Positions 41,346 through 42,607 of a DNA stretch of 64,000 nucleotides are shown one piece after another. The stretch's first letter is position 1. Each line of letters begins with the position of its first letter. The position numbers were made by a program, and so were the translations under genes. The notes below the pieces were generated by a model. That model made no database searches, had not been told where the DNA came from, and was given only the letters and a program-made list of their open reading frames with translations. The DNA comes from Actinomycetes bacterium (GTDB lineage Bacteria > Actinomycetota > Acidimicrobiia > Acidimicrobiales > Acidimicrobiaceae), in NCBI GenBank assembly GCA_021841935.1, contig JAKCDL010000002.1:62001-126000 (forward strand). Reading direction: 5' to 3'.

Positions 41346-41375
41346 TTTCGAGCAAACCTCGATATCAAGGTACGT

Positions 41376-41409
41376 GGTCGGCCTCCAAAAATGGGGGCCG
41401 ACCATTTCG
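41376..41409 (+). terminator. Intrinsic terminator after tuf
   Basis: GGTCGGCCTCC (41376-41386) pairs with GGGGGCCGACC (41393-41403), with one G-U wobble, around a short A-rich loop, followed by ATTTCGTTT. The stem is long and GC-rich, so the str and S10 units are probably separate transcripts. Confidence 0.85.
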
Positions 41410-41462: not shown

Positions 41463-41789
41463 ATGGCAGACAACTCGAAGCAAAGGATTCGTATTCGCCT
41501 TAAGGCGTATGATGCAGCGATTCTTGACGCCTCGACTCGCAAGATAGTCGATACAGTATTGCGTACCGATGCAAAGGTCAAGGGACCGGTTCCGCTGCCT
41601 ACCGAGACTTCCCGGTATACAGTGATCAGATCTCCACATAAGCACAAGGATTCTCGTGAACACTTTGAAATGAGAGTTCATAAGAGGCTTCTAGACATTG
41701 TGGAGCACACGCCAAAGACTGTTGATTCTCTGCAAAGACTAGATGTTCCTGCAGGTGTAGACATCGAGATTAAAGTTCAATCCCTATAA
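41463..41789 (+). CDS. rpsJ: 30S ribosomal protein S10
   Basis: Small-subunit head protein that also serves in NusB-NusE antitermination. [20 protein letters not shown] at the start, [20 protein letters not shown] in the middle and [11 protein letters not shown] at the end. 108 residues, slightly longer than the E. coli protein. TAAGGAT precedes the ATG. It is separated from rplC by 176 bases containing a terminator-like structure, unusual within an S10 operon. Confidence 0.97.
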
Positions 41790-41799
41790 GGGAGTAAGT

Positions 41800-41940
41800 G
41801 GCATTAGTGCCAAATAAGTTTGATGGCTTTGACGTCTGGGTAGGCCGAAAGGAACCGCCTGGCAAACAGATGGCAGAGCTCCGCCGGTAGGCGGAGTTTT
41901 TGTTTGCTAGTCGAACCATCAATCGCCGGTATTCCGGCAT
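41800..41940 (+). promoter_or_regulatory. Structured leader with internal terminator before rplC
   Basis: The rpsJ-rplC gap folds by eye into several elements: GGCA-TTAG-TGCC (41800-41811); a nested stem in which TCTG (41835-41838) pairs with CAGA (41867-41870) and TAGGC/GCCTG pair inside it, with CCGAAAGG at the tip; the terminator at 41879-41901; and GCCGG-TATT-CCGGC (41925-41938). The combination of a folded region, a terminator and the next gene suggests attenuation. No known riboswitch or ribosomal leader consensus was recognised. Confidence 0.5.
41879..41901 (+). terminator. Intrinsic terminator-like hairpin between rpsJ and rplC
   Basis: CTCCGCC-GGTA-GGCGGAG followed by five T residues (41897-41901) is a textbook factor-independent terminator shape. 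It lies inside what is normally a continuous S10 operon, so it must be partial, conditional or followed by a new promoter. Confidence 0.85.
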
Positions 41941-41965
41941 TAGATAAACAAGGAAAGCTCAGGAA

Positions 41966-42607
41966 ATGGCAACCAAGGCTCTGATAGGCAAGAAGCTAGG
42001 TATGACGCAGGTTTGGGATGACCAAAACCGCGTTATTCCGGTAACTGTCGTCAAGGTTGACCCAATGAGGGTCATGAGGGTAAAGCAACCCTCCACTGAC
42101 GGTTATTCGGCACTTTTGGTTACGTATGGTACCAAAGATGCTCGTAAGGTAAATCGTCCCGAAGCGGGCGTCTTTCACAAGGCTGGTGTTGAGCCAGGCG
42201 TGGAAGTTTTAGAGTTTCGTCTTGAGGACGTCTCTGGATATTCTGTTGGAAGCGAGTATGGCGTAGAGATCTGGGAAAGCGGCGATTTCGTCGACGTAAC
42301 CGGGACTTCTAAGGGCCACGGTTACTCCGGAGGCATGAAGCGACACAACTTCAAGGGTCAAAAAGCTTCCCATGGTAACCACAAGAAGCATCGTGCACCG
42401 GGTTCGATTGGAGCCTGTTCAACACCTGCCCGAGTCTTCAAAGGAACTCGTATGGCGGGTCAATACGGTAGCGATAAGGTTACTACACAAAACCTCAAGG
42501 TTGTCAAGGCTGACACTGAAAGAGGGATCTTATTGATCAAGGGTGCGATTCCTGGTGCTAAAGGCTCCTCTGTGGTCGTTCGCGACGCCGTTAAGGGCGG
42601 GAGATAG
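41966..42607 (+). CDS. rplC: 50S ribosomal protein L3
   Basis: Early-assembly 23S rRNA-binding protein near the peptidyl transferase centre. GKKLGMTQVWDDQNRVIPVT opens it; GTSKGHGYSGGMKRHNFKGQ and HRAPGSIGACSTPARVFKGT are the conserved loop that reaches toward the catalytic centre. 213 residues. The ATG follows CAGGAA. Its stop overlaps an in-frame GTG of rplD, whose better start is three bases later. Confidence 0.97.
   Translation: MATKALIGKKLGMTQVWDDQNRVIPVTVVKVDPMRVMRVKQPSTDGYSALLVTYGTKDARKVNRPEAGVFHKAGVEPGVEVLEFRLEDVSGYSVGSEYGVEIWESGDFVDVTGTSKGHGYSGGMKRHNFKGQKASHGNHKKHRAPGSIGACSTPARVFKGTRMAGQYGSDKVTTQNLKVVKADTERGILLIKGAIPGAKGSSVVVRDAVKGGR

Follow-up and report, generated by a model that had tools for sequence, protein, structure and literature searches.

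A conserved structured leader RNA ahead of rplC in Acidimicrobiales, a candidate autoregulatory element with a terminator form in the genus of Acidithrix

Why should a terminator-like hairpin stand directly ahead of an essential ribosomal-protein operon? The question is raised by a 64,000-nucleotide stretch of DNA (the window) from a draft genome that belongs to the same genus as Acidithrix ferrooxidans, in which 176 nt separate rpsJ from rplC, the latter being followed by rplD, rplW, rplB, rpsS, and further ORFs. A preliminary description of this DNA read the gap as an attenuation leader, with a terminator, a GAAA-capped stem before it and another hairpin after it, and suggested that it might be an undescribed ribosomal-protein autoregulatory RNA controlling rplC onward, with rpsJ expressed apart. 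All three elements are exactly as described and can be read directly from the sequence (Table 1).

Results

A structured leader precedes rplC

The gap folds more stably than its shuffles (-66.2 versus -50.4 +/- 4.0 kcal/mol, z -4.0); positions 41790-41905, folded as a single sequence, are moderately unusual (z -2.1). Its core is a hairpin, P2/P3, in which the P3 region reads GGCC-GAAA-GG(AA)CC at 41843-41856, joined to a second hairpin, P4, by a segment within which GCAAACAGATGGCA does not vary in the genus. An outer helix, P1, might conceivably close the leader; its pairing is confined to the window species and the two relatives closest to it, with zero double changes.

Table 1. Features of the rpsJ-rplC gap and its flanking genes (window coordinates)
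Feature	Position	Strand	Basis or remark
rpsJ (S10), upstream neighbor	41463..41789	+	ORF; in most relatives a homologue stands before the leader
Small hairpin TGGCA-TTAG-TGCCA, just 3' of rpsJ	41799..41812	+	Kept in L001-L003 only
Putative closing helix P1, 5' half TTGATGG	41820..41826	+	Predicted fold
Leader RNA family core	41829..41911	+	Match to covariance models R1/R2
Hairpin P2/P3	41836..41862	+	Covariation
P2	41836-41840 with 41858-41862	+	Part of P2/P3
P3	41843-41846 with 41851-41852 and 41855-41856	+	Part of P2/P3
GAAA loop of P3	41847-41850	+	
Conserved 2-nt bulge in P2/P3	A41853-A41854	+	
Joining segment CAAACAGATGGCAGAG between P2/P3 and P4	41863..41878	+	
Hairpin P4, intrinsic terminator stem	41879..41896	+	
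U-tract UUUUU of the terminator	41897..41901	+	Conserved in the genus
Putative closing helix P1, 3' half CCATCAA	41916..41922	+	Predicted fold
Downstream hairpin P5, GCCGG-TATT-CCGGC	41925..41938	+	Position and sequence differ among relatives
Probable rplC Shine-Dalgarno sequence AAGGA	41950..41954	+	Predicted mostly unpaired (0.75)
rplC (L3), which opens the putatively controlled operon	41966..42607	+	ORF

Among relatives, the gaps 5' of rplC share one order of elements: GAYGU, P2/P3, P4, and GUYUGCGUG. The 3' strand of P2/P3 carries a 2-nt NA bulge, the A of which is nearly invariant and the flanking G-C pair invariant, and P4, GCUCCG/CGGAGC in the family, varies less than P2/P3 and is conserved in sequence too. 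Across 79 realigned loci, 92% of cells pair, and double changes occur at 16 of the 21 pairs, including 10 of the 11 in P2/P3. There are 243 double-changed cells, against 76 +/- 7.5 after shuffling and 22-78 with the partner strand slid, and parsimony on the rplC tree resolves them into about 71 independent double changes, mostly in P2/P3. These counts all come from alignment A4, which was built from the source sequences. Because A4 was fitted to the structure, they lean somewhat toward it, a minor concern in view of how large the effect is and of what the slid controls give. The covariation analysis for which the preliminary description had called thus shows that evolution has maintained P2/P3, with its 2-nt bulge, as a structure. 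P2/P3 is kept even where P4 has been lost, as would be expected of a sensor whose output part can be exchanged.

Several variants of the arrangement were observed. In genera g2, g3, and g7 of the same family (L108-L110, L165-L169, and L171-L173), P2/P3 is present and P4 is gone; g3 has a different long hairpin (GGCAC...GUGCC) ahead of the rplC Shine-Dalgarno sequence. In two AT-richer relatives (L049 and L060) an element resembling P2/P3 (CUACG/CGUAG with GCGCCC...GGGGACC) lies about 100-180 nt 5' of rplC, and what follows it is unrelated; the model barely detects this diverged variant.

Distribution of the leader

A two-hairpin covariance model built from 22 sequences (P2/P3 with the 2-nt NA bulge, then P4) matched most of the 98 sources searched with E values of <1e-10. 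The window's own genome holds a single copy (64.5 bits with R1, E 1e-17). In a sample of the class, 119 of 246 genomes match, and within the order 83 of 87; of the four exceptions there, two belong to genera with P2/P3 but no P4 in the rplC gap, one matches a second model, and one is an assembly without rplC. The gene directly 3' of the leader is rplC at all 50 of the loci L111-L160 (49 loci from other genomes and the window's own), and the leader accompanies rplC even at loci distant from rpsJ (L013 and L063). Class members without the leader have rpsJ-rplC gaps of -3 to 58 nt, which leave no room for it.

Outside the class we found weak matches only, and those whose neighbors were checked, the strongest ones, have neither rpsJ nor rplC nearby. 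The weak matches checked are terminators or unrelated sites, with ordinary terminators, for example, beside pyk, a cold-shock gene, and a tRNA gene; the strongest match outside the class (41 bits) is a terminator beside a pyruvate-kinase gene. A homologue of the leader before rpsJ in other Actinobacteriota was considered and rejected, neither rpsJ nor rplC being near the candidates (L161-L164 and L208-L211). With Rfam 15 at its gathering thresholds, the window yields four tRNAs only and 20 relatives yield nothing; the best subthreshold match is RsmY, at 20.7 bits versus the 57 needed. Nor is such an rplC leader named in the open-access papers searched. The leader is thus an undescribed structured-RNA family, real and, on comparative evidence, well supported, much as the preliminary description had supposed for a leader of rplC onward. 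It has the general marks of a ribosomal-protein leader, namely a conserved structured RNA 5' of a ribosomal-protein operon, with strong copies beside ribosomal-protein genes only.

The search also turned up several records with rplC of the Acidimicrobiia type under other titles, one titled Saccharibacteria (L069) and five titled Acidobacteria (L013, L026, L042, L057, and L066). The leader is present at high score in L013, L042, L057, and L069, and, because rplC type and leader disagree with the titles, the names or bins look wrong.

The terminator form is confined to one genus

At 41879-41901 the window reads CTCCGCC-GGTA-GGCGGAG-TTTTT, a GC stem of 7 bp with a GGTA loop and five T, 65 nt before rplC. 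In a strict search (perfect stem of at least 7 bp, at least 6 GC pairs, at least 5 T directly after), this is the sole site on either strand of the 64 kb, and 60 dinucleotide shuffles gave 0 sites; a looser scan found 9 sites where 7.2 are expected, which alone is not significant. Hairpin P4 with at least five U is kept in all 11 genomes examined of the genus, at loci of 47 to 64% GC, the U-tract persisting even at 63-64%. Terminator score d is 8-32 in the genus and mostly <5 elsewhere, and in most other genera the place of the U-tract is taken by a low-scoring, GUYUGCGUGU-like sequence. A GC-rich stem followed by a U-tract is accordingly found in the genus and not in most other family members. 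By sequence, then, P4 with its U-tract is an intrinsic terminator in the genus of Acidithrix, and this canonical terminator, or attenuator, form is specific to that genus. The attenuation layout seen by the preliminary description therefore holds for the genus, where the terminator is conserved, and fails as a feature of the family; because that conservation stops at the genus, attenuation cannot serve the family as its general output.

Outside the genus P4 may possibly act as a weak terminator, because ordinary terminators of relatives can have tails, such as CUUUUGCGUG, that resemble those of non-genus leaders. The rpsJ terminators of three relatives (L038, L068, and L075) score 22-38, although the leader tails of the same genomes score low. 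A class-specific tail could not be defined from the terminators collected over 800 kb of relatives' DNA, which were too few and too noisy to serve as a reference.

rplC as the usual start of the operon

A -10-like box (TAnnnT) lies 15-75 nt 5' of the leader at 78 of the 79 loci, compared with 34 +/- 4 in shuffles that keep base composition and not dinucleotides. In some relatives rpsJ has its own terminator or lies >1 kb from rplC. From these boxes, rpsJ terminators, and separated genes, we take rplC, and not rpsJ, to be the usual first gene of the operon in the order. That rpsJ is expressed apart, as the preliminary description proposed, thus agrees with what is seen in most relatives; its premise that rpsJ and rplC are normally cotranscribed is not the rule in the order. 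The window species and the two relatives closest to it have a degenerate box, with the small hairpin at 41799-41812 occupying the site of the box (TAGGCT) found in other species of the genus; in these three the leader may therefore be reached by read-through from rpsJ. A scan of the stretch from the terminator to rplC for a promoter that might have accounted for rplC expression found none. In the tuf-rpsJ gap of the window (41374-41405), a strong 14-pair hairpin has a short T-rich tail and is followed by a TATGCT box, and rpsJ may form a transcription unit of its own, apart from tuf too.

Candidate elements that were rejected

Several elements that might accompany such a leader were sought and set aside. 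A motif search for mimicry of rRNA in 23S and 16S gave nothing above chance (best E 0.087; best 23S score 14.9 versus maxima of 14.5 +/- 2.3 in shuffles that keep base composition and not dinucleotides). The 23S helices at about 510-560 and near the 3' end (2932-2989) of L193 look like P2/P3 (GG..UA bulge..CC), and these resemblances, in domain I and near the 3' end, were rejected as mimics because their scores do not exceed those of shuffled sequence. Inspection by eye revealed no conserved antiterminator; CCGCCU/AGGCGG, between P2 and P4, occurs in some species of the genus only, being present in L001-L004 and by inspection broken in L005-L010. A small ORF from GGAG-N7-GUG after P4 loses its start codon and varies in frame and length, with in-frame stops before rplC at 34 of 79 loci, the other frames having them at 43 and 31. 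Sequestration of the Shine-Dalgarno sequence is not conserved, the sequence being accessible in most species and in no conserved pairing, and a GAYGU/GYGUG pairing is, by inspection, broken in several clades.

Discussion

We think it likely, with a probability of roughly 0.6, that this RNA is a cis-acting leader through which a ribosomal protein autoregulates the rplC operon, with transcription attenuation as its means in the genus. We infer that a protein of some kind would be the regulator, and L4 and L3 are the likeliest candidates. L4 is suggested by analogy with the E. coli S10 leader, and L3 by the position of rplC as first gene together with the role of the L3 globular domain, which organizes domain VI of 23S rRNA (PMC9935924). 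In such a scheme, a ribosomal protein encoded by the operon, most probably L4 or L3, would bind P2/P3 when in excess over rRNA, the bound hairpin would favor termination at P4, and rplC onward would not be transcribed; new rRNA would draw the protein off, and polymerase would read through. Where P4 has no U-tract or is itself absent, as in other genera, the same sensor could serve a different output: termination might be weak, or translation might be affected, the latter conceivable because the leader lies close to the start of rplC. A narrower version, in which rplC is autoregulated by its own product L3 through a conserved P2/P3 sensor with genus-dependent outputs (a terminator in Acidithrix, other hairpins elsewhere), is a tentative idea that we consider rather doubtful; no L3-responsive leader turned up in the open-access literature searched.

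These proposals must be weighed against others. The structured RNA could be real and P4 with its U-tract nothing but a constitutive terminator or processing hairpin, which ends rpsJ transcripts or fixes the ratio of rpsJ to rplC without any protein switch. P4 does resemble terminators elsewhere, several weak matches of the model are ordinary terminators, and neither an antiterminator nor a ligand was found. However, P2/P3, independently conserved with a bulge of its own, would then be superfluous, and in relatives the hairpin lies 3' of a promoter-like box, so that it acts on rplC transcripts and not on rpsJ ends alone. Moreover, a plain strong terminator directly 5' of an essential operon would silence that operon, and P4 is non-canonical in most relatives. 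We therefore regard a constitutive hairpin as unlikely.

It also seems improbable that the leader acts mainly on translation or mRNA stability throughout, the U-tract of the genus being a mere extra. Such an action would suit the near-constant spacing of about 36-39 nt that places the leader close to the rplC start in many species, as well as the restriction of the U-tract to one genus; yet the accessible Shine-Dalgarno sequences speak against it, as does the retention of U5 in 11 of 11 genus genomes against GC drift. A metabolite riboswitch, or another non-ribosomal signal acting through P2/P3, is far less probable still. The hairpin and its conserved bulge might in principle accommodate a small molecule, but strong copies stand only before rplC and never before metabolic genes, and the RNA is small and simple for that class. 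Finally, a chance terminator-like sequence with random folding in an intergenic gap might be suggested by the modest z value of the single-sequence fold, but the covariation, the conservation across the family, and the empty shuffles refute it, and we give it practically no weight.

The candidate autoregulatory leader has parallels in known systems. The S10-operon leader of E. coli, upstream of rpsJ, is an L4-responsive attenuator with a stem D and an attenuator hairpin E, in which binding of L4, with NusA, causes termination (PMC10578931). In both, the operon is of the S10 type, a terminator hairpin comes after an upstream hairpin, and the set of downstream genes, rplD (L4) among them, is the same. 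The present leader differs in lying between rpsJ and rplC, in another phylum, with no family match and a terminator in one genus, and the L4 effect known in E. coli makes L4 a candidate here by analogy; because the location differs and homology was not detected, the leader is not a member of the E. coli family. A predicted L4 leader of Archaeoglobi, with rplC, rplD, rplW, and rplB as regulated genes (PMC7247131), likewise lies directly before rplC in the same operon, but it is archaeal and restricted to its lineage, and the Rfam scan of the present leader found nothing. The rpsJ motif RLC-47-1 of Peptostreptococcaceae, a candidate ribosomal leader of an S10-type operon (PMC11109978), differs, as far as its description allows comparison, in standing before rpsJ and in Clostridia. 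The L10(L12)4 leader of rplJL in Bacillus subtilis also works by transcription attenuation (PMC4538822), in another operon and with another protein.

How this large ribosomal-protein operon is kept in balance is known in detail for E. coli, and few leaders have been predicted for it in other lineages. The family described here, with strong covariation support, spans nearly a whole order of Actinobacteriota. Its proposed output could be tested in a cultured species, Acidithrix ferrooxidans, and across its genera it would offer a natural series in which the putative sensor stays constant while the output part changes.
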